Position numbers and translations under genes: made by a program. Shown here in pieces: positions 7,170 to 38,862 of a DNA stretch of 42,120 bases (position 1 is its first letter; the number at the start of each line of letters is the position of its first letter). The notes under the pieces are model-generated. The model searched no databases. It was given only the letters and a program-made list of their open reading frames with translations, and had not been told where the DNA came from. Source of the DNA: Verrucomicrobiota bacterium (GTDB taxonomy: Bacteria; Verrucomicrobiota; Verrucomicrobiia; Limisphaerales; UBA9464); assembly GCA_029865985.1 (NCBI GenBank), contig JARXAF010000154.1, positions 1-42,120 of the forward strand, given 5' to 3'.

Positions 7170-7766
7170 TCAAGACGGCCGTCCCGCCGATTTCAACACC
7201 AGTCGGATTTGCTGGTGGAGCACCTCCAGGGAACCTTCGTTCCAGAGACCATAGTGCGCCCGCTGAAGCTTATCAGCCATCGGGAGCTGGGCGGATAACC
7301 GTTGGTTCACCATCTCATCAGACCACTGGCGTTCTCGCAGCCGTTGCCATTGAGTGCGCTCGCTGCAAGCCAAGGCGATGACGGCCTGAAAGTGTTGGGC
7401 ATAGCCCTTCTCATACAGCAACGGAATGACCACCACCGCATGACTGCGACCTTGGACGGCTTGTTCGCGAACCCAATGCGTCCAAACCTCAAAAATTCGC
7501 GGATGGAGGATGGATTCCAGGTTTTTTCGGGCTGAAGCGTCTCGAAAAACCAAGCGCCCAAGCGCCGATCGATCCAATTGGCCTTGGGAATCCAGGATTT
7601 CCGTTCCAAAGGTTTCAACGATCTTTGAGAGCGTCGGTAGACCGGGCGCAACCAGATCTCGCGCCACCGTGTCGGTATCGAGGACAGGAATGCCTAGTGC
7701 CGACACGAACAGCGCCGTCTCGGATTTCCCTGCGCCGATTCCGCCCGTGATACCCAGGGTGATCAT
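7170..7766 (-). CDS. coaE: Dephospho-CoA kinase
   Basis: A 198-residue P-loop kinase for the last step of coenzyme A synthesis, phosphorylating the 3'-hydroxyl of dephospho-CoA. The P-loop GGIGAGKS is at residues 8-15. It is followed by the CoaE-typical VLDTDTVARDLV, the HPRIFEVW segment and VVIPLLYEKGY, all at expected spacing. Length is normal. The ATG at 7766 sits only 3 bases from the U-run of the terminator that closes the long upstream operon, and no Shine-Dalgarno sequence is visible in the few bases left. The gene must therefore be translated from read-through mRNA, from a start with a weak ribosome site, or as a near-leaderless transcript. Confidence 0.94.
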   Translation of the reverse strand: MITLGITGGIGAGKSETALFVSALGIPVLDTDTVARDLVAPGLPTLSKIVETFGTEILDSQGQLDRSALGRLVFRDASARKNLESILHPRIFEVWTHWVREQAVQGRSHAVVVIPLLYEKGYAQHFQAVIALACSERTQWQRLRERQWSDEMVNQRLSAQLPMADKLQRAHYGLWNEGSLEVLHQQIRLVLKSAGRPS

Positions 7767-7769
7767 TTC

Positions 7770-7807
7770 AAAAAAAGAGCGCTGGAGAATCGAGATTCTC
7801 CAGCGCT
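7770..7807 (-). terminator. Rho-independent terminator of the secretin operon
   Basis: Read on the minus strand there is a perfect 14-bp stem (bases 7807-7794 pairing with 7791-7778; arm AGCGCTGGAGAATC) with a 2-base loop, then CT and a run of seven U (7776-7770). It lies 53 bases after the stop of the 1094-residue protein and directly before the coaE start codon on the same strand. Confidence 0.88.
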
Positions 7808-7860: not shown

Positions 7861-10800
7861 TCAGGGCTTGTAAAGAATTCGGTAAGCCTTCGCGCCCGTG
7901 CCTTGATCCAAAGCGTCGTAGAACTTCAGCACCTTGGAGGACCCCGAGGTATTGGCCAAACGACTCAAACCCGTCCAGGAAGTGCCCACAGCTGGCTCCT
8001 GGGCCAAGATTTGATACTCGGTGTTGGCCGCAGCATCCCATGAAATCTCAATGTAGGGCTTACCCTGAATTTGAATGGCCTTGGTGGTGACCACCGCACC
8101 TGAGAATGGGGTGGAATCGATGGCATTGACAAGACCGTCACCGTCGGAATCCAGCGACATCGAGTACCGAACGGACCAAGAAGCTTCGACGACATAACCC
8201 GTGCCGACGTCGACGGAAACCGGTCCACCATTGGCGCCAGCAATCGGGACCAAGCGCAACCGACCGCCCAAAGCTCCATCCAGAACCGGGCCTGAAAGCT
8301 CGACTCCGTTGACGGAAACGATGCTGTAATAGAGGCGCGTATTGCTGTCGATGGTCAGAATCGACGCCAAGCCATCGGCATCAAACGTCTTGTTGGTGAC
8401 GTTGATGTACTGGCTGAACTCTCCATTCAACTCCAGGCGCCGGGTGTAGAGGGCGCGTTCACCGGATCCGGCGGCACGAATGTCTGCTCGTCCGTATTCG
8501 CCGACGGTCAAGACCAAGGCACCGATGGCCGAGTTATTCACTAAACCAGCAGCCTCGGTCCCACGATCCAAACCCGGCCAAGCCACAAAAGCGGTTTCAA
8601 AGCGACCGGCCCTGACGGAAACGCTCACGCCACTGAGGTCGTTGGAGGCCGCATTAGCTCCCAATTTGACCCCTGCTCCCGACAAAACAAAGACCTTGCC
8701 AGCGGGTGCCACAAACCGGTCCGAGACATTCAAGCTAATCAGGTTCGGAGTACCGATCAGACCACCCTCCGTCGCGTCCAGAGTGTTGGCGGTAACATTC
8801 AATCCCCCTCCGGCCAAGATGCTGTTGGTTCCTGCCAAGACCATCGAATTCATGGCTAGGTCAACGACATTGCCACCCTCGATCCGCCCCGCCTGGTAGA
8901 ACGTGGATGCACCCAATCCCAGGTAACCCGAAGAGATCAAGGTGCCGGTATTCGTGATGTAGTTCAGAGCCGTGCTCTGTCCCACGCCCAGAGCAATGCG
9001 CTCGCCGAAGATGTCAGAAGAATTGGAAAGAGTCTTCAGCATCGGGAAGGTGCGGGAAGAAACCCCGAGCGAACCGACCAATTGGAAGCTCCCCTGGTTT
9101 GTCCAGTTTTCGGTAACCGGAGCCACCTGCTCGTTGCCGGAGATCGAAGACGCTCCGGAAAATCCATCCGGGTAGGTGGTCGGAATCGCGTCGACGTTGG
9201 GCACCTGGTACAGGACCGGATCCACAGTGGTCAAGTTGGTTGCTCGCAGCTTCAAGCCGACGAGCTCACCCGTGGTTTTCAAGGGATCGATGTCTGCATC
9301 GATAATCATCACTCGGAAGTGGGTATCGGCCAAAAGATTCGCAGGAGTCGTTGTTCCGGTCCCCGCGTTGGGATCCGAGGTTGCTGCAGCCGCAGCGGGA
9401 TCCGGGAACTCTGCAGTGTTGGTCCACGAGGTCACAAAGACTTTAATGATGCCCGTCAGATTCGGTTGCCCCACCGGGTTCAACCCACGGTAGACCATGG
9501 TGCCGTTGGTGGATCCCAGGTCATAGTTGGCGTAGGGTGCGGCGATGCTCGTGGACGTCGACGAGGTCACGTGCTTGGCCTTGATATTGACCACTCCGTG
9601 CGCACGGATGCGGGCGTCCTCGAGATTGAGGTTGTTCGCCTCGATCCTCACTCGGCCGGCGAGATTTGTGGCGTACCCAAAGGAGGATTGGGATTGCGAT
9701 CCAAAGAAACCTCTGCCGAGCGAACGGATTACCGACCCATAGGTGCTGTTAGTGGGGTTGGGAATCTTGGAAGGCAGCGATGTGATGGCGAACGAATAAG
9801 CCATGTAATCATTGGTCGAGATCAAATTGGTGTAGGCCACGCCGTTTGTCATCAAACCGAAGTAACCCTTTGTAAACAGATCCCTAGTGAACAGGCTGTT
9901 TGCACCCGATTGTGAGTTATTCAGATAGCGTGCCAAGAGATTCGATTTGGAAATCGGATTGAGAGGATTGAGCTCGTCACCAATGATGGCTCTCTCGGCG
10001 CGACTGATAGGAATCGAGACTCCAACATTGCGAGTGAGGCGAACATTGTAGGGCACTGCCGTGTTGGGAATCTTGTAATCCCAACCATAAATATTCGTGG
10101 GCGCCGTAGTGAAGCTCTCGACGATACGCAAGCTCTCAAAGTCGACCGATCCGGCTGTGTTGTTCGTGTTGAGGTATCCCAAGGTCACCGCCAAGTTGCG
10201 GGTCCCATCCACCAAAGCCGAAGCCACGACGTTGGAGTTGCGGTTGATGATGAATACCGCATTGATGCGGTTGTTGGTAGCAGTCAGCTGGTTTGTCTGG
10301 ATGTAAACCAAGGCTGGCACCGGAGGAAGACCGATCGACGAAATCCCATCACCGATCCAATTTTCAGGGTTGTCGATAGGGTTACCTGGGACCCGATCAA
10401 TGGCCGCAAGATAGCTGATGTCGATGTTTGCCAGAACATTCGTGACCACGATGTTTGTGGTCGCTGTCGTATAGGTGGTTCGCACCGGTCTGGCGGTTGC
10501 GAAGGACCCAAGTTCCAGCGGTAGTGTCGAATATCCCCAATACAAATTCTCGACTCCTCCAGGACTGTTCGCGACATGAATGCCGCCCTCAAGACTCGCA
10601 AATCGCCCAAATTCCGGGGAGGTGCGATTGAGGGTAGTCAGGGTGGATCGAGTGAGATCGACGTTGTGACCATTGGCAGCAATGTCTCCCCAAAATGAAA
10701 CAGAGATCCGGCCCCGATTGACAATGTTGGTCGCATTGAGAATCAAATACCCGCCGTCCCCGTAAGTGTAGGATTGTCCATCTGGATAACCAAAACCGAA

Positions 10801-11145
10801 GATGGCCGTACCAATGCCTTCAATCACGGCACGATCCCCATTGTAAATGGTCTGACTGGGATACCGGAAGCCTCTGGAATTCACGTTCAGGAACTCCATT
10901 CCATAGCTCGCCTGAATTGTTCCCAGATTTGTGTAGTTGAGAGTATTACGGGTCGCAAATAAATCAAATGTGTCGGCAGAGAATGTCCCTGCATTAACAA
11001 ATGAGACCGCGTCGATTGGCCGATCTACCGAGTAATTGTCCCCGTTGTAGAAATCGCCCGCAATGGCAACCCAACTGAAGGCCACAGCAGAAATGATGGA
11101 TCTGACCATGATAGAGATTCGGGTCGAGAATTTCGTGGTTTTCAT
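7861..11145 (-). CDS. Large exported beta-rich protein (1094 aa)
   Basis: Residues 1-29 form a signal peptide (positive start MKTTKFSTR, hydrophobic core, cleavage probably after AIA). The bulk is rich in Asn, Thr, Gly, Ser and Ile, with many short strand-like segments (NYTNLGTIQASYG, NNLNLEDARIRAHG, NWTNQGSFQLVGS), suggesting a beta-helix/hemagglutinin-like repeat fold. The last ~75 residues form a separate domain: ISWDAAANTEYQILAQ ... WTGLSRL ... AYRILYKP. A similar C-terminal pattern occurs in the propeller protein two genes upstream. I do not recognise a named family; there is no cell-wall anchor or autotransporter barrel. It is the last gene of the operon, 8 bases after the preceding stop, and is followed by a strong terminator. 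It is probably a surface or extracellular structural/adhesive protein, by inference. Confidence 0.85.
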   Translation of the reverse strand: MKTTKFSTRISIMVRSIISAVAFSWVAIAGDFYNGDNYSVDRPIDAVSFVNAGTFSADTFDLFATRNTLNYTNLGTIQASYGMEFLNVNSRGFRYPSQTIYNGDRAVIEGIGTAIFGFGYPDGQSYTYGDGGYLILNATNIVNRGRISVSFWGDIAANGHNVDLTRSTLTTLNRTSPEFGRFASLEGGIHVANSPGGVENLYWGYSTLPLELGSFATARPVRTTYTTATTNIVVTNVLANIDISYLAAIDRVPGNPIDNPENWIGDGISSIGLPPVPALVYIQTNQLTATNNRINAVFIINRNSNVVASALVDGTRNLAVTLGYLNTNNTAGSVDFESLRIVESFTTAPTNIYGWDYKIPNTAVPYNVRLTRNVGVSIPISRAERAIIGDELNPLNPISKSNLLARYLNNSQSGANSLFTRDLFTKGYFGLMTNGVAYTNLISTNDYMAYSFAITSLPSKIPNPTNSTYGSVIRSLGRGFFGSQSQSSFGYATNLAGRVRIEANNLNLEDARIRAHGVVNIKAKHVTSSTSTSIAAPYANYDLGSTNGTMVYRGLNPVGQPNLTGIIKVFVTSWTNTAEFPDPAAAAATSDPNAGTGTTTPANLLADTHFRVMIIDADIDPLKTTGELVGLKLRATNLTTVDPVLYQVPNVDAIPTTYPDGFSGASSISGNEQVAPVTENWTNQGSFQLVGSLGVSSRTFPMLKTLSNSSDIFGERIALGVGQSTALNYITNTGTLISSGYLGLGASTFYQAGRIEGGNVVDLAMNSMVLAGTNSILAGGGLNVTANTLDATEGGLIGTPNLISLNVSDRFVAPAGKVFVLSGAGVKLGANAASNDLSGVSVSVRAGRFETAFVAWPGLDRGTEAAGLVNNSAIGALVLTVGEYGRADIRAAGSGERALYTRRLELNGEFSQYINVTNKTFDADGLASILTIDSNTRLYYSIVSVNGVELSGPVLDGALGGRLRLVPIAGANGGPVSVDVGTGYVVEASWSVRYSMSLDSDGDGLVNAIDSTPFSGAVVTTKAIQIQGKPYIEISWDAAANTEYQILAQEPAVGTSWTGLSRLANTSGSSKVLKFYDALDQGTGAKAYRILYKP

Positions 11146-11153
11146 CGGTCAGT

Positions 11154-12605
11154 TCAGTTGCTCCGAAGGGAGAGAACAGCTGCTTCGAGATCCGAGAGCT
11201 TGCTGCCAATCGGGTAGAGAATCGGAGCGTTAGTGCTGCCGTCAAATGAGCCCCAAATATTGCCGGGCTGCCCGTCTTGCTCGTCGGTGTTACCGATGTG
11301 CAGCGAGTAAACGCCGAGCTTCGAAAAGGTATAGCTGGAAATGGGTTCAATGGTTCCCGGACCTTCGGCGGCGGCATCGAGGGTGGCACCGGTATTCTGG
11401 AACGTCACCGGAGAGAATTCGAAGGCAACGGGAGCGTAGTTATCGAGCACACCGAGATCTCGAGCACTGATCAAAATCTCTGGGCGTGCAATCAAACGAC
11501 TGACAACTTGTCGGGTGACAACACCATTGGAGCTGACCACTTCGGGGTAAGTGACTGCCGCCTGACGGGCGTTCTGGCGAAGCACCGGGTCCAAGTTGAC
11601 TTTGATAAAGCGAACCCGATCAACACCGGCCCGAACCGCGAGATTGACTAGTTGGAGCGTGTTGCTGGTACCAGTGGTTCCCACCGCGGTGGTGCCGATT
11701 TGGTTGGAAGAATCGGCCACGGTCCAAGGTGACTCCAAGGAGGCAGAAGCGCCACCGGTACTGGCTGAAACGCTGCCGCGGAAGGATCCAGCGGGCGCGC
11801 TTTCATAGTTGCGGTTGGCAGGGTGATACAAATAGCGCAATCCGCCCGCATCGTCCCGGGTGAGTCCGGTGAAGTAACGGCCGTTCGGGTTGATGGACCG
11901 CGCAACACGGTCGTCACTGGTCACAAAACTATTGATGCTGACGGTAGACGCCAAACTGATATTGGGATTGGCGGAATCAACCGGAATTTCACGAGCATCA
12001 GAGAATATCCGGGCGCCATCACCATTGAAGATGTCGCGCACGATGTACGAATACATGGTCCCATTCACATAGCGGGAAGGACGGCCGGAAATCGGATCAT
12101 AATTGAAATTAGCAACCGAATATCGAATCGGGTCAACACCCCGTCCACGGATGGACCAACACCAACGCTCTGGAGATGTCAGCCCCAGTGTGGCCATGAT
12201 TTGCGAGAGGATCTGGGTTTTAACATCAATGAGCCCCAGGGCACTGGCCGTCGGGTTGACTCCATCGGCCTTGAGCGGAAATTCCTCTAGGTTTTCGCTG
12301 AATGCAGAAACATTAGTAAGACTGTTGAAGAGAGCAAATGCCTCATCCACGGCACGCGCTCCATCGGCGCCGAAGAATTCCATGAACGACCCATCAATGC
12401 CGTAGGTGACGACCGGGGTACTGAGGCGATATTCGTCTCCACGCAATCTCGGGCCACCATATTCAGGGGCGCTATCCGGGATGTTATAGCCGAGATCAGG
12501 AGCCTGCCAGCCTGCCATAGGGCCGAGCAGGGTAAATGCACGGGTCGGCAGGACTCCGAGCAGCAGCAGGGCGACGATTTGAACGATAAAGGGGGTCGTG
12601 CGCAT
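11154..12605 (-). CDS. Exported protein of unknown family (483 aa)
   Basis: There is a clear signal peptide (MRTTPFIVQIVALLLLGVLPTRA, cleavage after TRA). The mature part begins FTLLGPMAGWQAPDLGYNIP and contains FMEFFGADGARAVDEAFALF, RWCWSIRGRGVDPIRY, YIVRDIFNG, and further on GLRYLYHPANRNY. The C-terminal half has a beta-sandwich look (PVTFQNTGATLDA ... YSLHIGNTDE). I see no HExxH, catalytic triad or carbohydrate-binding signature and do not recognise the family. It starts 2 bases after the stop of the propeller protein and ends 8 bases before the next start, so the three are co-transcribed and may act together. Exported location is secure; function is unknown. Confidence 0.85.
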   Translation of the reverse strand: MRTTPFIVQIVALLLLGVLPTRAFTLLGPMAGWQAPDLGYNIPDSAPEYGGPRLRGDEYRLSTPVVTYGIDGSFMEFFGADGARAVDEAFALFNSLTNVSAFSENLEEFPLKADGVNPTASALGLIDVKTQILSQIMATLGLTSPERWCWSIRGRGVDPIRYSVANFNYDPISGRPSRYVNGTMYSYIVRDIFNGDGARIFSDAREIPVDSANPNISLASTVSINSFVTSDDRVARSINPNGRYFTGLTRDDAGGLRYLYHPANRNYESAPAGSFRGSVSASTGGASASLESPWTVADSSNQIGTTAVGTTGTSNTLQLVNLAVRAGVDRVRFIKVNLDPVLRQNARQAAVTYPEVVSSNGVVTRQVVSRLIARPEILISARDLGVLDNYAPVAFEFSPVTFQNTGATLDAAAEGPGTIEPISSYTFSKLGVYSLHIGNTDEQDGQPGNIWGSFDGSTNAPILYPIGSKLSDLEAAVLSLRSN

Positions 12606-12607
12606 GG

Positions 12608-14140
12608 TCAGCGATCGGATTGGACGCGGAAGTAGGACTGAGAAGCAGCGCCTGCATCAACGGACGCTGTCTGAGTGGTCGAGGTGGCCGTTTGAGTGGC
12701 CTGAACCTCGTTCCAGTGGAGGAGATCCGTGGAGGATTCCAGACGGTACTTGGCCCCGACCACCGCTTCCCAAGAAAGGCGAAGCTTTTGGCGCGGAGTC
12801 ACGGACACCTTTTTAAGATCGCGTGCCGACAAGTCTACTCCGGTGCTGATACCCGAAAAATCGCTCCAAATAGCGCGATATCCCGAAGCGGTGGCCACCA
12901 CATTGGGAGCGAATTGATCGTTCCTGCGATTTTGGTTGAGAATCATTTCTTCACCGGCAACCAGGCCGTTGGCGGTGATGGCTTTGGCGGCGATGCCCAA
13001 ACCCGATCCGTCAGCCCCGCGTGTGGACCACACGGCCAAGGCTCCCTCAGATCCGGAAGAGATACGAACCCCGGTTTGGTCATAGGACCGGAAGTCGTTG
13101 AGGGTGGTCGGGGATCCGACGACAACTCCCGTGTTGGAGACGATGGCTGTGCGGATGTCCCAAGATGATTTGGAGTCCAAATCAAACTCTGACCATCCGA
13201 TGATCAGCTTGCCGGTAGGCAGCGTGGCCATGGACGGCCGATCGCAAGGCGCCGCAGCTCCGTTGACCCAGATGGGGGAAGCCGCTTTGCCGTCCGCGTG
13301 GATGATCTGTGCAAAAATGTCGGAGTTTGCCTCCCGACGGGTGCCTTGGCCACCTAGGTTCAGGACATCGGCAGACGCTTGTTCAGCCACCCAGGCAACG
13401 GCGAGGTCACCATTGGGGAGAGCCGAAATCGTCGGTGCCCGATCGACTAATGCAGAAGTACCAAGCACCCGACGATAACCAGAAGGTGATCCAGAACCCT
13501 TAAAGCTCTGCAAATTGATCTTGGACGAGACCCCATCGGCTCCGATGGACTGCCAGGCGAAGGCGAACCCTCCACCGGGGACTTCCGTCATCGCTGGTGA
13601 TTCATGGCTGCCGTTGGAATCAGCCAAAGCCACCACCCACTCATCACCTTGAGGCACTCCAGAGCGGGAGAGCTTGCGGGCATGGATGGATTGCTTGCCG
13701 GGCTTACCGGATTGCCAGGCGACCACAGCCGATCCATCCGCCAAGGCCACCACCACAGGATTCTCTTGATTGAAAAGAGCCTGCTGGTTGACTCGGAGGA
13801 TTTGCGGACTGGCCGATCCCGATTGCAGATTCAACACCCGTGAACCGATCCCGAGCCCATCGCCATCAATGGCGTTGTCCTGCCAAACGACGAACGCGTT
13901 CGACCCTGCGGCGGCCACCGATGCATTGACCTGATCGCCGGCAAGACCAACCGGTGAGGCGCTGTTGGGCAGGATTCGTACCTCGCCCCCGAGGATCTCT
14001 ACCGTTGCCGGTGCGACTTCCTGAATCGTCAAACGCGGCGCTTGAAGAGTGATCCCCTGGCCTAGGACCGACCCTGTGAGACCGATGAGGGCGAGCCCCA
14101 TCAGCGTCCAAGGTGATCGTCTATTTCGGATTTGGTTCAT
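12608..14140 (-). CDS. Exported seven-repeat beta-propeller-like protein
   Basis: 510 residues. The signal peptide is about residues 1-27 (RRSPWTLMGLALIGLTGSVLG). Seven diverged repeats of roughly 45-60 residues follow, each with a P-x-x-x-x-L-x-x-G-x-x-x-V-x-W core: AFVVWQD, SAVVAWQS, GFAFAWQS, DLAVAWVA, KLIIGWSE, GALAVWST and GYRAIWSD. Seven such units fit a seven-bladed propeller. The C-terminal ~65 residues form a separate domain (LRLSWEAVVGAKYRLESSTD, LHWNEV, SYFRVQSDR) similar in pattern to the end of the 1094-residue protein downstream. There is no obvious active site. It follows the secretin gene after 72 bases and is tightly linked to the next gene. I propose a secreted or surface protein handled by the upstream machine, as inference only. 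Confidence 0.84.
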   Translation of the reverse strand: MNQIRNRRSPWTLMGLALIGLTGSVLGQGITLQAPRLTIQEVAPATVEILGGEVRILPNSASPVGLAGDQVNASVAAAGSNAFVVWQDNAIDGDGLGIGSRVLNLQSGSASPQILRVNQQALFNQENPVVVALADGSAVVAWQSGKPGKQSIHARKLSRSGVPQGDEWVVALADSNGSHESPAMTEVPGGGFAFAWQSIGADGVSSKINLQSFKGSGSPSGYRRVLGTSALVDRAPTISALPNGDLAVAWVAEQASADVLNLGGQGTRREANSDIFAQIIHADGKAASPIWVNGAAAPCDRPSMATLPTGKLIIGWSEFDLDSKSSWDIRTAIVSNTGVVVGSPTTLNDFRSYDQTGVRISSGSEGALAVWSTRGADGSGLGIAAKAITANGLVAGEEMILNQNRRNDQFAPNVVATASGYRAIWSDFSGISTGVDLSARDLKKVSVTPRQKLRLSWEAVVGAKYRLESSTDLLHWNEVQATQTATSTTQTASVDAGAASQSYFRVQSDR

Positions 14141-14212: not shown

Positions 14213-17203
14213 TTAAAACGCCGTTGGGTTGGCCGTCGTCCGGGGCGGATTGGTGCTCGGATCCATCGGGAGATTCTCCGGATCATGAACACGCTTGCCC
14301 GCTGCATCAACGATGGTCGCCGTGACAAAGATCATGAGGTTCTTCTTCACGGTCCGCGAGTTTTCGCTGCGGAAGAGACGTCCCAGGACGGGCACGTCAC
14401 CCAGAACAGGAACTTTGTCGCGTGACTTCACGTTATCCTCGGCGATCAAACCGCCCAAGGCAACCGTCTGGCCATCCCACACGATAGCGCTGGTGGTGAC
14501 CATGCGCACGCGGAGACGCGGGAGCGGCAAAACGGAGGTACGGCTGATCGGCGAGCTGCCGGAGGTCAAGCCGAGAATTTGAGGCACGAACGGACCCGGA
14601 TCGTCGTAACCAACGAATTCTGTGATCGTCGGGAGAATGGTCATTTGAATGGTCTCGTCATCCGAGGACACATAGGGAACAACATCCAGAACCGGACCGA
14701 ACGGTTGGGAAACGGTTCCCGGGATGATCAAATTGATCGCGGCCTGGTTCACGTTGTTGCCAACGCCACCACCGCCGAGTCCACCACCGCCGCCGCCACC
14801 ACCTTGTCCACCGCCACCGCCGCCGCCGCCCTGATTGTTCAAACCCGTTGCAATGGTGCGGACATCGGAGACTTCGACGTGAGCCTGACGACCACTCAGG
14901 GTCGTGACTTTCGGAGCGGAGAGAAGATCCACACCGTCACGCTGTTCCAACGCGCGGATAACCACCTTGAATTGAGGATCGGTCAAGATGCCGGTGAGGC
15001 TGAACACCTCAGGGATTTTGCCGCTGTCCGCGGTGGTGTTACGCAATCCGGAGGTGACCAATTGATCATTCGCGCCGGGAGCGGCCAAACCGGCGACGCT
15101 GGTGCCAGGGAAGACGCCGCCGGGCAAAACCTGAGAGCCATCGACCGAGGTGCTGCCGGGATTGGCCCTCGAAGGTTGACCCGTGTAGCTCGGGGCACTA
15201 CCGCCAGAAAGACCGAGGCGGCCTCCACCCAACAGGGCGTTGCCCAGGAGCCAATCAAAGCCCAAGGCCTTGCTGTCGGTTTGGTTGATCTCAGCGAAGC
15301 GCGCTTCGATCTCCACCTGCGGAGGCGTCACATTCAGGATCTGAATGGCTTTCTCGATGACGTCCAAGTCGGAGAGGGTCGCTCGGACGAACAGGATTCC
15401 GGTGCGGTCATTGAAGAACAAGGCCTTTTGATCCTGTTCCCAAGGGGCAACACCGGGCGGATAAGCTCCACCCATCCCACCGCCCATGCCGCCCATGCCG
15501 CCGCCCATACCACCCATACCTCCGCCCATGCCGCCCATACCCATGCCGCCGCCCATACCGCCCATACCACCACCCATGCCGCCCATGCCACCACCGCCCA
15601 TGCCACCGCCCATGCCGCCGGGCATCATGGTCATGGGGAAGTTGAGACCGCAGGACATGAAGAACATGCGAACGACGACTTGGATATTGGCCGTCAGGTT
15701 GGTGCGAGTCACACCGGTGATTCCGGCGCCGCCCATGCCGCCGCCCATGCCGCCGCCACCACCACCGCCGCCCATACCGCCGCCCATACCACCACCACCG
15801 CCGCTGACTTCAACGCGGGGAATGGTGAACACGCCACCTTGGCCACCTTGACCGCCACCGCCACCACCACCGCCGCCGCCGCCTTGACCGCCGCCCTGAC
15901 CACCTTGGGCCACCGCGGGGGTCATGCCGGTGACGCTCTCCAAACCTTCCATGAAGGTATTGGGATTGACCCGCCACCAACGGGAATGAAGCTGGGTCGC
16001 CTCAGGGAGACGCTGACGGAACATGATGCCCCACTCTTCCACCGAGTATTTCAAAGGCTTCTCGGAAACCTGCGAGATGATTTCAAGAACGTCTGCCAGG
16101 CGCAAATCTCGCAAAGCCGGATTGATGCGAACCGGAACATTGTTCAGGTCGACCGGTTCAGCGGCCTGTTGAGCTTGTTGAGGGGCTCCAGTAAGAGGAT
16201 CCACTCCACCCATTCCCGGAGTAGACAACGGCTGATCCACCTGCGAATTCACCACGAACGCGATACCCTTCTTCTCCGGATCACGAAGGCGGGTTTGCTC
16301 ATCGAGGTACTTCACGACCTCACCCAGCGGCAGTCCATCAAACTTGATCTCGTTGATGCGGATGGTGTCGAGCTTGTGATAAATCGCCTGACGGCCGGAT
16401 CCGGTATGGACGCGATTGGTGCGACCGAACGGATTGGCAATCGGAAGCTTCGACTTGGGCTGCTCCCAATATTGCTCCACTTCGAGCAGTTTATCCTTGT
16501 CGGTCAAAAGCTTCTCGCGATGAGCGCGGGTGTACTTGGACTCCCGAATGATGTTCAAGTACTGGTAGGCCGGACCGTTGTCGGGATCGAGCTTGATGGC
16601 CTCCTGAAGCTTGGTTTCGGCGCGATCGAAGTGTCCCATTTCAAAGGCCAGCTTGCCGTCCTGAACGGCGATCGCAGCGGCCAATTTGTTGGTCTTGTCC
16701 TGGCCGATGTAGCTCAACGCTTCGTCGGAGGGGACGCGTCCCACCAAGTTGGCGAGGCGTTGATCATTCTCGCGCTTGAAGTTCTTGGCCTTGATGTGGT
16801 TCGGGTCGACCTTGAGGATGCGCCTCACCTGGAGGTCGGCTTCCTTGTACTCGCCCGCCTTTGCGGCATTGTAGGCCAGCGCCAAGCGAGTGGAAGTGAA
16901 GCCCTCGATGGTGATGTTGCGTTCCTTCTCAACGCTCGAACCCAATTCCTCGGTCAAATTCCAAGCGTCTTCGTAGGCCTTGGCGGCCGACGTGAGATCG
17001 CCCTGCTTAGCGGCAGTTGCGGCAGCCTCCAACGTCTTGCGCAAGACGATGGCTTTTTCTTCGCGCCGTACGGCGATCTCACCGGCTTCCTGCGCCACGG
17101 CGCGGGTGGAGACGGTATCGAACGCGGCAATGAGTGCGACGAGACTCAGGATCTTCGAGACTTTCGTCATGGGGTTCTTCACGGGTTGGACTAAAATGGA
17201 CAT
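14213..17203 (-). CDS. TPR-containing secretin, PilQ/GspD-like, Gly/Met-rich
   Basis: 996 residues. The signal peptide ends near residue 38; Met12 (17170) is an equally plausible start with a shorter signal. TPR-like helices occupy about 55-220 (AFEMGHFDRAETKLQEAIKL). N-type domains lie around 278-430 (INEIKFDGLPLGEVVKYLDE) and 590-640 (GILFVRATLSDLDVIEKAIQ). The secretin core runs from about 730 to 966: LLSAPKVTTLSGRQAHVEV, then the signature VPVLGDVPVLGRLF (931-944) and KKNLMIFVTATIV. Four Gly or Gly/Met tracts interrupt it (434-457, 468-492, 529-579, 792-813). Secretins form the outer-membrane pore of type IV pilus, type II and related systems. The upstream PilMN-, PilO- and PilP-like genes make this the PilQ position, equivalent to Amuc_1098 of Akkermansia. 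The ATPases and pilins are not in the window. Confidence 0.92.
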   Translation of the reverse strand: MSILVQPVKNPMTKVSKILSLVALIAAFDTVSTRAVAQEAGEIAVRREEKAIVLRKTLEAAATAAKQGDLTSAAKAYEDAWNLTEELGSSVEKERNITIEGFTSTRLALAYNAAKAGEYKEADLQVRRILKVDPNHIKAKNFKRENDQRLANLVGRVPSDEALSYIGQDKTNKLAAAIAVQDGKLAFEMGHFDRAETKLQEAIKLDPDNGPAYQYLNIIRESKYTRAHREKLLTDKDKLLEVEQYWEQPKSKLPIANPFGRTNRVHTGSGRQAIYHKLDTIRINEIKFDGLPLGEVVKYLDEQTRLRDPEKKGIAFVVNSQVDQPLSTPGMGGVDPLTGAPQQAQQAAEPVDLNNVPVRINPALRDLRLADVLEIISQVSEKPLKYSVEEWGIMFRQRLPEATQLHSRWWRVNPNTFMEGLESVTGMTPAVAQGGQGGGQGGGGGGGGGGGQGGQGGVFTIPRVEVSGGGGGMGGGMGGGGGGGGMGGGMGGAGITGVTRTNLTANIQVVVRMFFMSCGLNFPMTMMPGGMGGGMGGGGMGGMGGGMGGMGGGMGMGGMGGGMGGMGGGMGGMGGGMGGAYPPGVAPWEQDQKALFFNDRTGILFVRATLSDLDVIEKAIQILNVTPPQVEIEARFAEINQTDSKALGFDWLLGNALLGGGRLGLSGGSAPSYTGQPSRANPGSTSVDGSQVLPGGVFPGTSVAGLAAPGANDQLVTSGLRNTTADSGKIPEVFSLTGILTDPQFKVVIRALEQRDGVDLLSAPKVTTLSGRQAHVEVSDVRTIATGLNNQGGGGGGGGQGGGGGGGGLGGGGVGNNVNQAAINLIIPGTVSQPFGPVLDVVPYVSSDDETIQMTILPTITEFVGYDDPGPFVPQILGLTSGSSPISRTSVLPLPRLRVRMVTTSAIVWDGQTVALGGLIAEDNVKSRDKVPVLGDVPVLGRLFRSENSRTVKKNLMIFVTATIVDAAGKRVHDPENLPMDPSTNPPRTTANPTAF
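14765..14830 (-). repeat. Gly-codon tract inside secretin core
   Basis: Low-complexity GGN codons encode residues 792-813 of the secretin (almost all Gly, one Gln and one Leu). The tract falls between the strand ending in VRTIATGL and the strand AAINLIIPG, so it is an inserted loop within the conserved pore domain. Confidence 0.8.
15467..15619 (-). repeat. Gly-Gly-Met tandem codon repeat in secretin
   Basis: About 150 bases of imperfect 6-9-base units (plus-strand CCGCCCATG/CCACCCATA) encode residues 529-579, only Gly and Met in GGM/GGGM blocks. The pattern suggests expansion by slippage or unequal exchange, with synonymous changes between units showing it is not brand new. Confidence 0.9.
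15728..15904 (-). repeat. Two further Gly-rich tracts in secretin
   Basis: Residues 434-457 (15833-15904; Gly/Gln) and 468-492 (15728-15802; Gly/Met) are low-complexity, separated by a short ordered piece (VFTIPRVEVS). Together with the 529-579 tract they surround a segment with hydrophobic character, IQVVVRMFFMSCGLNFPM. Confidence 0.8.
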
Positions 17204-17224: not shown

Positions 17225-18022
17225 TTACCTCGCCACGGTGGTACGCACGGAATTGGGCGCGGACACTACTAGTTCCTCTTTCTCGATGGCAACAATCTTG
17301 TAGACCGCGCCGGAAAGAGTGATGGATTCGCCGACCCGCTTTTGTGGGAAATCCCTGCGATCGGCCTCATACCGGAGGTCGGCAGCGTATCCCTGCGTGC
17401 GACGGAAGCTCTTGCCCTTGGTCAACTGGAACGACTCTCGGGTGGAGATGAGTTCGCAGACGAAGTTCGTGGGCGCATCTTTAGGACCCTGAATGTCGAC
17501 GAGGCGAAACAGTTGGTCCTTGTTGTCAGAGCCTACGGCCACCGACTCAACCATGGCGCGACGACCGTTGACGGTCTTCTCATAATCGCGGCGCACGGAG
17601 AATTGATACCGCGGTGCGTCCGGGGTGCCGGCGACTTGTTCAAAGGCGATCTCCAGAACCAGATCATGGGCACTGACGTAGGCCAAACCAGAAGCGCCGG
17701 TGTTGGCGCGGGGCTTGGAGGGTTCGAGGCGACCACTGGCACCGCGTACCCAAGTGACAGGATTGAAAGTGTAGTGATCTTGAGCGGCCAAGACGGTCGG
17801 TGTTCGGCTTGTCACCCGCTTGAAGGCAGTCTGGGTGAGGTTGGTTTCCAGGTTCTCAGGCACCATCGGCTTTTGCTTGGCACCCGCCAAAGCCTGAAGG
17901 GCATTTTCGAGGTCCGTGCGGACCTGAGACACGGAGAGGACCAGGAAGATGGCCAGGCCGGCGACGGCCAGAAGGACGACTCCCAAGACCAGCTTCTCGT
18001 ATTGTTTCTTGATGAATTCCAT
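17225..18022 (-). CDS. PilP-like / Amuc_1099-like inner-membrane protein
   Basis: 265 residues with one N-terminal membrane helix (about 12-32, VLGVVLLAVAGLAIFLVLSV) after a short basic start, then a periplasmic region. The C-terminal part (KRVGESITLSGAVYKIVAIE followed by KEELVVSA) resembles the small beta domain of PilP/GspC-type proteins, where a short sheet contacts the secretin. Sequence similarity to PilP is not obvious; the call rests on position between the PilO-like protein and the secretin, topology and size, matching Amuc_1099 in the Akkermansia locus. It begins 19 bases after the PilO-like stop and ends 21 bases before the secretin's first possible start. Confidence 0.75.
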   Translation of the reverse strand: MEFIKKQYEKLVLGVVLLAVAGLAIFLVLSVSQVRTDLENALQALAGAKQKPMVPENLETNLTQTAFKRVTSRTPTVLAAQDHYTFNPVTWVRGASGRLEPSKPRANTGASGLAYVSAHDLVLEIAFEQVAGTPDAPRYQFSVRRDYEKTVNGRRAMVESVAVGSDNKDQLFRLVDIQGPKDAPTNFVCELISTRESFQLTKGKSFRRTQGYAADLRYEADRRDFPQKRVGESITLSGAVYKIVAIEKEELVVSAPNSVRTTVAR

Positions 18023-18041: not shown

Positions 18042-19058
18042 CTAACGGCGGGTCGCCTTCGGAGCCTGAGTTGAAGCCGGAGGGAGTGCTAACCGCACGA
18101 CCTCGAAGCCTAGGGTGACTCTGATGGGTTTCTGCTCGAGAACGATATCGCCAACCTTGCCCGACGGAGTCGCCGCGGCGGCATTGGGCTGTGAAGCTGG
18201 AGGCATCGTTCCCATTCCAGGGCGAAGACCATAACGGCTCATCATGGCCATCATTCCAGCGGCCGGATTCGCCGGAGCCGCTTCAGCCGACTCGGAACCA
18301 TCCCCAGAAGGGCGGTCCACGTTGACGGTCTTGAGAACGTAGGCGTTGGAGGCTCCCACAAACCGGGTCAACACTTCTCCCAGTTCAGAGCTGAAGCACT
18401 GGAATTGCACCTCGTACGGATGGATCCCCGCTCCGATCACCGTATTGGTTCCCACCTTCTTGGAGAGGATGTCTCCAGACCCGGCGGGCTCATTGGTACC
18501 AATGGCCGACCTCTTGATATGTTGCAAGGAATGGATCTTGGAGGCGAAGAGGATTTCCGAGAACTCGCGGATGTCGTTCAAGGCCAAGGCCAACGGCTGG
18601 AGGGTGTTGGGAGCCAAACGCAACTCCCGACGCTGAGTGCTGAAGGTAAAGTTGTATTTCGAGCTGGCGCCAGACCCTCCATCCGACCCGGACGGAAGTT
18701 TAACACCTTTGCGCTCAGCAGAACGGTCCAATTCACCGATGGTGCGGGTGAGGAGCGCCTTGAAAGATGCGTCATCCAAGGCTCCTACGGTAGAATACTG
18801 GGAGAAGGTGCTCAGGGACTGGGCTTTCAGCTCGGCAAACCGAACTTGCTCGGCCTTGGCCAACTCGATGTTCTTGGTGTTTGGGTACGGCTCCCGTTTG
18901 ACCAAGGTGTCGTACTCGTTTTTCTTGGCCTCGAGTTCCCCATTGGCGGCTTCAGCATCAGACTGTGCCGAGAACAGGTAGACCGCCCCGCCGATGAGCA
19001 GGGCCAACGCCACAGCTAGGCTGATAACGAAGGCAAGGTTGCGCTTGATCCAGGACAT
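18042..19058 (-). CDS. PilO-like / Amuc_1100-like protein
   Basis: 338 residues: a short basic N-terminus, one membrane helix (about 8-29, LAFVISLAVALALLIGGAVYLF), a coiled-coil-like helix (about 33-84) and then a periplasmic alpha/beta region. The segment YEVQFQCFSSELGEVLTRFV ... NAYVLKTVNV (215-247) has the ferredoxin-like rhythm of PilO/GspM and resembles the equivalent part of Amuc_1100 (LEIAFQGDRESVLKAMNAI). A flexible Ala/Pro/Met-rich linker (about 255-300) carries MSRYGLRPG, a motif also found in the PilMN fusion. A last strand VTLGFEVVRLALP follows. The gene begins one base after the pilMN stop (TGA T ATG). PilO proteins pair with PilN in the periplasm and link the inner-membrane platform to the secretin. 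Confidence 0.82.
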   Translation of the reverse strand: MSWIKRNLAFVISLAVALALLIGGAVYLFSAQSDAEAANGELEAKKNEYDTLVKREPYPNTKNIELAKAEQVRFAELKAQSLSTFSQYSTVGALDDASFKALLTRTIGELDRSAERKGVKLPSGSDGGSGASSKYNFTFSTQRRELRLAPNTLQPLALALNDIREFSEILFASKIHSLQHIKRSAIGTNEPAGSGDILSKKVGTNTVIGAGIHPYEVQFQCFSSELGEVLTRFVGASNAYVLKTVNVDRPSGDGSESAEAAPANPAAGMMAMMSRYGLRPGMGTMPPASQPNAAAATPSGKVGDIVLEQKPIRVTLGFEVVRLALPPASTQAPKATRR

Positions 19059-19059
19059 A

Positions 19060-20943
19060 TCAGAGCTTGATGGGGCGCTTGAGCTTGAGCTTCAGAGGGA
19101 AGGTGAAGGTCGCAGTGGTGTCTTCGACCTGCTCAAGATTACCGGAAAGTGAGGTTTCAGAAGCTTCAAAGAGGGGACTCGCCTTCGCCAGCTTCTCCAG
19201 ATCGTAGGCAATCTGACCATTGGCCTCTTGCTTCACCTTCTGCAAATTGACGGCTCGGATGCTGAGGTTGAGCACGGCCACTTCGTTGGTGGAAGTCGTG
19301 GATTTGGCCTTGGCACCGCCACTGGCTGCAGCGCCTTCAGTGGATCCACCACCCTCTCCACCCTCGGATCCAGTCATGGCGGACTTCGGAAGCAGGCCAT
19401 ACCGCGCCATGAGCTCCTTGCTCATTTGCGGGACCTTCGGAGCCTCTTCGTCGGCCGCGGCCACCTCAGGCTTAGGGGGTTCCGTAGAGTAGAACGTGTC
19501 CACCCAAATGCCCACCGGCACACCCAGCTTCTGTGAAGACTCGGCCTCGGTGGCCTTCAGGATGCTGCGAACCTCTGCGAGAATATCGGGCCAATAAGCG
19601 CGTTCGTTGAGCCAAGCACCCAGTTGGTCGGTCTGCTTATGGATCTCGGAAAGCTTGGCTTCTTCGCCCTTGAGCGAGGTTTCTACACGAGCCAAGGGTT
19701 CCACCTTTTCGGAAATGGTGGCCAAGCCTTCGCGGCGAACCGTCGCGACCTTGTTGTAGAACAATCCAGCGGCCCAAACACCGGCGGCGGCCACGAAGGC
19801 GGCGGCGATGAGGAACGGCTTCTTGGAGTTGAAATCTTGACGGGCCTTGGAGCTCTTGGGCAGCAAGTTCAGCTCGACCGGGCAGTCGGCGATGTTGCGC
19901 AATCCCAGACCCACAACCTCACCGAAGAACGAAGCCGACTTTTCCAATTCCTCGATGTTGACCGACGGATCGATCTGAATGTTGCGGAACGGGCTGAAGT
20001 ATTCGACCGGCAGGTTGAGCTTTTCTTGGAAAAACTCGGCGGAATAGGCCATCACCGATCCGCCACCGCAGAGAAACACCCGCTGAGGAGCCGATCCACC
20101 CTGTTGGGTGCGGTAGAATTGAACCGTCTGATTGACCTGCATGTGCAGGCGAGTCAGGACGTTTCGGGCCACCTTGGAAACCGCAGCCACCTTCGGATCA
20201 TCAGGTTCCTCGTAAGCGCCACCCAGACTGACAAAACCTTGAGCGATCTTGAATTTCTCGGCCTCGGCGAAGGGCACCTTGGACTCGGCTGAGTACTCTT
20301 GGGAAATGGTGTTGGCTCCGACCGGAACCGTCCGGACGTAGAACTTGTTCTTCTCGAAGAGCAAGACATTGCTGGTCTTGGCTCCGATATCGATCAAGAG
20401 GCTGCAGCCCTCAACATCACCGTAATTGTATCGGAAGGCATTGGCCAAGGCGGACATGGAGGCGTCCACCACTTCCATCTTGAGGCCCACCGACTCACCG
20501 ACAGCGAAGAGTTTCTCGACCACCTCGGCCTTGATGGCAACAAGCAGTACTTCGCGAGCCCCGTCGGCCGCGGTTCCGAGGATTTGATGATCCCATGCAC
20601 TCTCAGTCAGCGGGAACGGCACGTTCTGCTGAGCCTCGTACTGGATGATCTGGGAAATCTTGGAGGCGTCGACCGGGGGAAGCTTTACGAACTTCGAGAA
20701 AACCTGATAACCCGGAGCGGTGATATTCGCCTGACGGGAGACAAAACCACCCTCGGCCAGAAGCTCGGTCAGGGCACGCTTCAGGACTCCATCCCGGGCG
20801 GCATCTTGTGAACCGGGTAGGCCCAGAGCACGGACTCCAAAACGGAGGAGCTTCAAACCGCCACCGTCGGCCGGCTCGAACTCAGCGATCTTCAGGGTCC
20901 CTGCCCCGAAGTCGATTCCCAGAAACGTTTTGGCTTTTAGCAT
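19060..20943 (-). CDS. PilM-PilN fusion (FtsA-like ATPase joined to PilN-like domain)
   Basis: 627 residues. Residues 1-350 are a PilM/FtsA-type actin-like domain: phosphate 1 GIDFGAGTLKIAE (9-21), PGYQVFSKFVKLPP (77-90), QYEAQQNVPFPL (101-112), phosphate 2 LLIDIGAKTSNVLLFE (182-197) and adenosine-binding VFLCGGGSVM (289-298). Residues 357-363 read VELNLLP, the conserved N-terminal peptide by which free PilN docks onto PilM. Then come a membrane helix (376-396), a coiled coil (about 400-445) and a PilN-like periplasmic domain (WPDILAEVRSIL, then LNLSIRAVNLQKV to the end) interrupted by a low-complexity linker (487-550). PilM and PilN are separate proteins in classical pilMNOPQ operons. It is the first gene of the block and equivalent in position to Amuc_1101. 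Confidence 0.9.
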   Translation of the reverse strand: MLKAKTFLGIDFGAGTLKIAEFEPADGGGLKLLRFGVRALGLPGSQDAARDGVLKRALTELLAEGGFVSRQANITAPGYQVFSKFVKLPPVDASKISQIIQYEAQQNVPFPLTESAWDHQILGTAADGAREVLLVAIKAEVVEKLFAVGESVGLKMEVVDASMSALANAFRYNYGDVEGCSLLIDIGAKTSNVLLFEKNKFYVRTVPVGANTISQEYSAESKVPFAEAEKFKIAQGFVSLGGAYEEPDDPKVAAVSKVARNVLTRLHMQVNQTVQFYRTQQGGSAPQRVFLCGGGSVMAYSAEFFQEKLNLPVEYFSPFRNIQIDPSVNIEELEKSASFFGEVVGLGLRNIADCPVELNLLPKSSKARQDFNSKKPFLIAAAFVAAAGVWAAGLFYNKVATVRREGLATISEKVEPLARVETSLKGEEAKLSEIHKQTDQLGAWLNERAYWPDILAEVRSILKATEAESSQKLGVPVGIWVDTFYSTEPPKPEVAAADEEAPKVPQMSKELMARYGLLPKSAMTGSEGGEGGGSTEGAAASGGAKAKSTTSTNEVAVLNLSIRAVNLQKVKQEANGQIAYDLEKLAKASPLFEASETSLSGNLEQVEDTTATFTFPLKLKLKRPIKL

Positions 20944-37970: not shown

Positions 37971-38031
37971 AGGTCACTGACGATCCTGTTGACGACGTTT
38001 TCACGATGTCACACGTTGTTGGACACCTCTT

Positions 38032-38862
38032 ATGCACCTTAAGCCCTCATTCCATCGCTGTCGTCAGCGCGGATTCACGCTGATCGAACTGCTGGTCGTC
38101 ATCGCCATCATCGCCATCCTGGCGGGAATGCTCTTGCCCGCACTCGGCAAGGCCAAGTCCAAGACCGTGGGCATCCAGTGCATGAACAATACCAAACAGC
38201 TTCAGTTGGCGTTCACCTTGTACGCCGGTGATCAGGCTGAAGTCTTGCTGGCTTGCCAAGACGGTTTGCCCGACAGGCGCGCCAATTGGTGCACGGGCGA
38301 TGTCTCCTGGGGTTCCAGTAACACCGGGTCCAACGACGTGGCCCGGAGCCCGATGATGAAGTATGTCGGCAACGCGTTCGCCGTCTGGAAATGCCCGGCC
38401 GACCAGTCGTTCGTGGTCAGTGGCGGCCGGCGGATACCCCGTTTCCGCAGCAACAGCATGAGCCAAGTCTTCGGGTACGGCGAGTGGTTGGATGGATCGA
38501 GTTCCGGTCGGAACCAGACCGCTTGGCGCACTTACTCCAAAGAAGGCAACATCGTGAACCCCTCGCAAACCTGGGTGTTCGTGGATGAGCACCCCGGCAG
38601 CATCAACGACGCGGCCTTCGCCAATCAAATGCGGGATGCCGAAACCGCCAACGCCCGCATCATTGACATGCCCGCTTCTTACCACAACGGCGCCTGCGGC
38701 TTCTCCTTCGCCGACGGTCATTCCGAGATCAAGCGCTGGCGCGGAAGGACCATCCAACCCAAGGCCGTCTTCGGTCAGAATGTCGCATTGAACATCCCGG
38801 CCGCTGATTCCCGACCGGATGTGCTCTGGTTCTTCCAGAACACGACCGCCTCATCTCGATAA
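38032..38862 (+). CDS. Type II secretion-type pseudopilin, H-X9-DG class
   Basis: 276 residues. The class III signal is [20 protein letters not shown], with cleavage after the Gly and methylation of the Phe, followed by the hydrophobic pilin helix and [11 protein letters not shown]. Near the C-terminus [12 protein letters not shown] fits the H-X9-DG motif that defines a very large pseudopilin class in Planctomycetes and Verrucomicrobia. FPxCPADQ-like KCPADQS and [10 protein letters not shown] are also typical. These proteins are processed by a prepilin peptidase and probably assemble on a T2SS/T4P-like platform. It stands alone, with a terminator 38 bases downstream. Confidence 0.93.

Follow-up and report, generated by a model that had tools for sequence, protein, structure and literature searches.

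The stretch of DNA analysed here (the window) comprises 42,120 nucleotides and is contig C19 of a 3.6-Mb metagenome-assembled genome (MAG) of Verrucomicrobiota. Directly behind the gene for the secretin of a type IV pilus-like machine, it carries three genes (hereafter the trio) for large exported proteins: a seven-repeat β-propeller protein, a 483-residue protein and a 1094-residue protein. The question raised by this locus is whether the trio products are cargo that the secretin releases, as an earlier note on this DNA had proposed, or parts of the machine. Our favoured reading, to which we give a probability of about 0.5, is that they form a dedicated outer part of the machine that holds a substrate, in a role like that of PilY1, which an excerpt of PMC13190605 describes as a seven-bladed propeller at pilus tips. 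The gene order on the minus strand is pilM, two genes for small membrane-anchored proteins, the secretin gene, the propeller, 483-residue and 1094-residue genes, a terminator and coaE; the features are as follows.

19060–20943, minus strand: pilM (Amuc_1101-like), 627 residues; TIGR01175 148 bits (cut-off 133), NF045709 492 bits (cut-off 650).
18042–19058, minus strand: Amuc_1100-like membrane-anchored protein, 338 residues; NF038287 E 3.4e-19, below cut-off.
17225–18022, minus strand: Amuc_1099-like membrane-anchored protein, 265 residues; NF042425 E 2.6e-5, below cut-off, and its place in the conserved order.
14213–17203, minus strand: secretin (Amuc_1098/PilQ-like), 996 residues, with a TPR N-terminus and a long Gly/Met-rich tract; PF00263 101.9 bits (cut-off 27.5), NF042912 360 bits (cut-off 750).
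12608–14140, minus strand: exported seven-repeat β-propeller protein with C-terminal module, 510 residues; seven conserved Trp, adjoining the secretin in the family.
12611–12811, minus strand: C-terminal module of the propeller protein (residues ~444–510); profile searches and alignment.
11154–12605, minus strand: exported 483-residue protein with a matrixin-like N-terminal half lacking zinc ligands and a β-rich C-terminal half; AlphaFold pLDDT 83, VIA-align rows to matrixins, homologues without HExxH.
12174–12206, minus strand: former active-site helix of the 483-residue protein (residues 134–144, in register with HExxHxxGxxH); Gly141 is conserved in 47 of 49 rows, unlike the zinc-ligand positions.
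7861–11145, minus strand: exported 1094-residue β-helix protein with a DSDGDG loop and the C-terminal module; sequence and predicted structure.
8251–9528, minus strand: predicted right-handed β-helix of the 1094-residue protein (residues ~540–965); Z 8–10 to tailspikes and autotransporter passengers.
7864–8109, minus strand: C-terminal module of the 1094-residue protein (residues 1013–1094), FnIII-like in the model; Z 6.3–7.0 and profiles.
7778–7807, minus strand: intrinsic terminator with a 13-pair stem and a T7 run behind it; the strongest among 21 sites, with an average of 15.9 in shuffles.
7170–7766, minus strand: coaE, flanking gene, also found behind the secretin outside the order; PF01121 158 bits.

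Read from the sequence, the trio genes follow the secretin gene at gaps of 72, 2 and 8 bases, all three products have signal-peptide-like N-termini, and a strong terminator closes the trio, just as the earlier note had described. Within the genus the gaps are 72–91, 2–3 and 8–11 bases, with the exception of one frame-split 1094-residue gene. The trio is probably co-transcribed with the secretin gene. The Gly/Met-rich low-complexity tract of the secretin lies at 15430–15910 (residues ~430–590), and the contigs of several relatives end inside it; assemblies may therefore under-count the operon.

The linkage of trio and secretin holds in relatives. In a family sample of 50 genomes, from which 45 regions were taken, some secretin was present in 50/50 and the 483-residue protein in 43/50. 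When only informative regions were counted, the propeller gene followed the secretin gene in 37/37, the 483-residue gene followed the propeller gene in 40/40 and the 1094-residue gene came next in 36/36; the script rule gave 35, 40 and 35, and its misses were settled by eye as a mis-set secretin end (L063, L064) or a split gene (L039). Three of the seven family genomes without the 483-residue gene have a contig that ends at the secretin or at the propeller start, and the other four have no close secretin either; therefore, none of the seven shows the machine without the trio. An order-wide sample of 80 loci from named genomes, 29 of which overlap the 45 family regions, placed the propeller gene upstream of the 483-residue gene in 70 of 72 cases (69 by the script rule, L136 being an artefact of that rule) and the 1094-residue gene downstream in 63 of 65. 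The exceptions, L131 and L144, are lone extra copies of the 483-residue family away from the operon, and the assemblies concerned have the operon as well (L153, L134). In part of the order, one more very large open reading frame (ORF) that bears the module lies between the 1094-residue gene and coaE (L103:14306–18010, L104, L107, L115, L152, L154).

The trio belongs to one order, probably Limisphaerales. The 483-residue family was detected in 166/196 genomes of the order (103/111 of the good ones), but in only 3/387 genomes of the phylum, namely this genome, one of the same order and one with a weak match. The carriers are a group of mostly uncultured Verrucomicrobiota, and a description of the trio was not found in the open-access literature searched. 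Six loci titled Akkermansia muciniphila (L076, L077, L086, L109, L111, L116) have the operon of this order and fall among Limisphaerales-type records; they are probably mislabelled MAGs.

We compared these loci with 20 PilM loci from outside the order, 19 of which have the secretin in view. Trio genes were absent from all 20 at E≤1e-3, and among the 19, coaE comes after the secretin gene in 17. Since the trio is missing from these 19 secretin loci, it looks like an inserted cassette, and the simplest reading of the sequences would be that three genes were inserted once between the secretin gene and coaE and then descended vertically together. A PolA-like 5'-3' exonuclease gene was seen by eye between the secretin and the trio in many order members (L126:6927–8016, L128, L130 and others); a 5'-3' exonuclease-like gene also stands behind the secretin in several outside-order loci (L267–L270, L272–L274, L279) and is missing from the secretin-trio junction in the genus of the window. 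Over 38 loci, distances of the trio members correlate with those of PilM (rho 0.67–0.72) and with each other (0.56–0.72), compared with 0.44 for PilM and CoaE. The fixed order, the near-single copy number and the co-divergence suggest that the trio products are surface subunits dedicated to the machine and not cargo that changes freely.

The machine to which the trio is linked is, by its sequences, of the known verrucomicrobial type IV pilus-like cluster type (Amuc_1098–1101/MUL2, pilM-N-O-secretin). The homologues of pilM, the Amuc_1100-like gene, the Amuc_1099-like gene and the secretin gene stand in the order of the Akkermansia cluster, and coaE lies downstream in loci outside the window's order; unlike that cluster, the loci of this order have three exported-protein genes inserted behind the secretin. 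None of the four proteins reaches the NCBI equivalog cut-offs for Amuc_1098–1101 (360/750, 23.9/50, 69.4/180 and 492/650 bits), and therefore the operon is a relative of the cluster and not a member in the NCBI sense. In Akkermansia, the cluster's secretin is given as the most abundant outer-membrane protein in an excerpt of PMC4960237, and the available part of PMC13174399 gives amuc_1099–1102 the name MUL2, a type IV-like pilus for which attachment to glycans is described or proposed. The ORFs upstream of pilM look by eye like a HAD hydrolase, a TPR protein and a transporter. T2SSE-type ATPases (7 matches) and T2SSF platform proteins (6 matches) are encoded in this genome on other contigs, and for this reason the operon is not the self-contained secretion or surface-assembly system that had been supposed.

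The propeller protein has seven conserved Trp residues, mostly spaced at 54–56 residues, and it shares with PilY1/PilC the tie of a seven-bladed propeller to a secretin-based pilus machine (PMC13190605, in excerpt). It differs in that its propeller is N-terminal and another module closes the protein, and PF05567, the PilY1/PilC propeller domain, was matched neither by the window protein nor by 35 relatives. Other members of the propeller family have an FnIII domain and a thrombospondin-type loop before the module (fn3 in 7/35, TSP3_bac in 12/35), a linker lost in the genus of the window; matches of the family in a PDB sequence search are mainly FnIII domains and fall within that linker, while Pfam and NCBIfam gave only weak matches at the tail of the protein. 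The same two collections hold no family for the 483-residue or the 1094-residue protein.

The 483-residue protein was modelled by AlphaFold with a mean pLDDT of 83, and nearly all of the 50 VIA-align rows of the model are matrixins or other metzincins (Z 3.7–5.0), most often aligned over residues 24–264, with root-mean-square deviations of mostly 2.4–3.5 Å over ~100 residues (2.4–2.8 Å in the better rows). The likeness to matrixins (M10; karilysin, MMPs) includes this core and the glycine of the HExxHxxGxxH motif. In contrast to matrixins, the family has lost the zinc ligands, with HExxH in 0/120 homologues, and adds a C-terminal half of 200 residues. We take it for a matrixin-like scaffold that has no zinc site, although the Z values by themselves are no proof of the fold. 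An active M10 peptidase was ruled out by the missing motif, and a secreted peptidase of this clan is unlikely on the same ground; Pfam M10 was not matched, none of the six families matched by any of 49 family members being M10, and a PDB sequence search with the family gave rows at chance level only. The model of the 1094-residue protein (mean pLDDT 77) consists of a right-handed β-helix (residues ~540–965; Z 8–10 to tailspikes and autotransporter passengers) followed by an FnIII-like sandwich, which is the C-terminal module (Z 6.3–7.0 to FnIII). Foldseek gave no match at E≤0.001 for this model, and our statements on folds are moderate because they rest on the VIA-align rows.

The propeller and 1094-residue proteins end in a common module; the 483-residue protein does not have it, as the earlier note had implied. 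A profile built from propeller C-termini alone matches the 1094-residue family, and the reverse also holds (E down to 1.4e-9 and 2.8e-7); therefore, the similarity noticed earlier goes beyond chance. All 34 aligned module rows share a Tyr, a Trp and an Arg, and a second Trp is kept in nearly all of them. The first module profile matched 36 places in the genome of the window at E≤1, and of the 30 that were read, 26 lie no more than 6 residues from the stop codon, 1 runs off its contig and 3 are partial matches followed by 34–41 residues ending in the closing motif, (F/Y)(F/Y)R(V/I), or a similar one. An enlarged profile matched 66 places, some by construction, as they are alignment members from this genome. 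Its 54 matches with E<0.003 included 21 not read before, 20 of which were fetched (one in a 48-residue frame was left out): 16 lie no more than 4 residues from the stop, a further one closes 30 residues later with the closing motif, and the remaining 3 (L228, L239, L243) have no such ending. The module marks about 50 proteins of this genome, nearly always at the extreme C-terminus; 50 of 51 scored proteins have it in single copy, and in 46 it lies within 8 residues of the end. In 20 loci from other families of the phylum, hand-picked from the top of the match list, it lies within 8 residues of the stop in 19.

The carriers of the module look exported in 34 of 37 cases, compared with 11/25 other genes of the window and 95/221 genes in L260–L279, by a rule that is loose and with controls that include truly exported genes as well as false calls such as coaE; an initial hydrophobicity score for signal peptides had failed to separate the controls and was replaced by this stricter rule. 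L222, a wrong-strand reading of a gene also read as L227, is outside the 37 proteins but inside the set of 51. The two outcomes that the earlier note had named as refuting it, a trio unlinked to the secretin in close relatives and a module absent from secreted proteins in general, were both looked for and not seen. The earlier proposal is in part supported: an export or sorting domain is consistent with these counts, but the module is not the tag of this machine (see below) and only two of the three trio proteins carry it. Pfam and NCBIfam scans gave no model for it: among 44 module rows there was one weak fn3 match, and three rows matched F5/8 type C (best E 0.0021) with the CBM32/F5-8 type C cut-off not reached (one row, with 18.6 bits against a cut-off of 28.2, covers profile positions 47–111 of 127). 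In the PDB, the profile hits a glucanase/chitosanase domain in its second half (E 2.7e-5), and we take this domain to be CBM32. The module thus resembles CBM32/F5-8 type C and FnIII domains by this half-match and by its FnIII-like model, but differs from them in having 60–70 residues, and in its single copy (50/51) and place at the very end (46/51).

In its single copy and strictly C-terminal placement, the module is like a sorting domain, for instance the one of the type 9 secretion system (T9SS). As far as the excerpt of PMC10994853 goes, the T9SS C-terminal domain is likewise a short β-sandwich that ends many large Sec-exported proteins and has a near-invariant basic residue near its end, Lys there and Arg in the module. 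Unlike the T9SS domain, however, none of the 44 module rows matched TIGR04183 (T9SS type A sorting domain) at E≤0.1; SprA was found in 0/194 phylum genomes, but no control genome matched either. We tentatively propose, as something possible rather than probable, that the module serves Verrucomicrobiota in general for sorting or surface attachment and would be their equivalent of the type 9 C-terminal domain. In this view a β-sandwich of ~65 residues with its closing motif, present once in each protein and at the far C-terminal end of dozens of giant Sec-exported proteins, would be read by an outer-membrane carrier. The two tagged members of the trio would then have become dedicated parts of the machine. 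Glycan binding is an alternative role for the module, of which no description in Verrucomicrobiota was found in the open-access literature searched.

These results have to be weighed against other explanations of the locus. The trio could be dedicated cargo, three substrates of its own that the secretin releases outside in the manner of a type II-like system. Linkage in one operon, the conserved order, the signal-peptide-like N-termini, the frequency of β-helix and propeller folds among secreted proteins, and the T2SSE and T2SSF relatives in the genome all agree with this; however, cargo would not usually be near-single-copy and unchanging throughout an order, the matrixin-like member has no zinc ligands, and the shared module is both unspecific to this machine and lacking in one of the three. 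We consider cargo rather unlikely, and "component" fits better than the earlier "cargo" because the set is fixed, near-single-copy and order-specific and includes the zinc-less matrixin-like member. A related explanation, by which the module marks proteins for export by this very secretin and all module proteins of the cell leave through it, would account for the two module proteins in the secretin operon and for the single, C-terminal copy. This candidate was rejected, and we regard it as very improbable, because the module, present in 93/194 phylum genomes, is independent of Amuc_1101-type PilM: 80 genomes with the module have PilM and 13 do not, versus 87 and 14 of those without it (Fisher P=1.0). 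Eleven genomes with at least five modules lack PilM at E≤1e-40, the threshold used throughout, and many PilM genomes lack the module; the module counts are those among the best 30 candidates per genome.

A further explanation is that the trio shares only a transcript with the machine, the cassette hitchhiking between the secretin gene and coaE while its products form an independent surface complex. The unrelated coaE keeps the same place, an exonuclease-like gene separates secretin and trio in many order members, and for this reason neighbourhood is no proof of function here; the two lone 483-residue paralogues point the same way. The trio and the close secretin are nevertheless lost together, 0/7 family genomes without the 483-residue gene showing a machine with a resolved downstream region and no trio, and the trio's distances co-vary with those of PilM more strongly than those of coaE do. 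Mere transcript sharing is therefore improbable in our view, and more so than cargo. Several observations also count against a dedicated head. Gene linkage alone fits cargo too; a MUL2A (Amuc_1102)-like pilin gene was not recognised beside pilM when ORFs were read by eye, no Amuc_1102 profile being run; and over the 38 loci secretin distances correlate poorly with those of the trio (rho 0.16–0.43), possibly because the long Gly/Met-rich tract aligns badly. The propeller is called here from sequence repeats and not from a folded model, the Z values of the matrixin alignments are under the level that the tool calls safe, and Foldseek returned no match at E≤0.001 for the 483-residue model.

If the trio is a dedicated surface head, the operon would encode a form of the verrucomicrobial type IV pilus-like (MUL2/Amuc_1098–1101) machine that is particular to this order, the three-gene cassette having settled between the secretin gene and coaE in the order's ancestor. 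The products would pass via Sec into the periplasm and most likely come together with the secretin, or else at the tip of whichever structure it lets through. The head would consist of the seven-repeat propeller and the β-helix protein, both ending in the module, together with the matrixin-like scaffold without zinc ligands, and would hold a substrate at the cell surface, perhaps a polysaccharide, by analogy with the glycan attachment proposed for MUL2 and with PilY1. Pilus motors encoded elsewhere would work the machine.

The core pilus-like cluster is already known; what appears to be new is the order-specific trio behind the secretin and a phylum-wide module for which these scans found no Pfam or NCBIfam model. 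In Akkermansia the MUL2-type machine is medically interesting, but its outer parts are poorly known; an order with three large exported proteins wired to the machine supplies named candidates for a surface head. The module is a starting point for learning how Verrucomicrobiota bring very large proteins to the cell surface or beyond, a process for which no described route was found in the literature searched. Elsewhere in the window, an ORF at 37993–38862 on the plus strand, ~17 kb from pilM, has a prepilin-like start.

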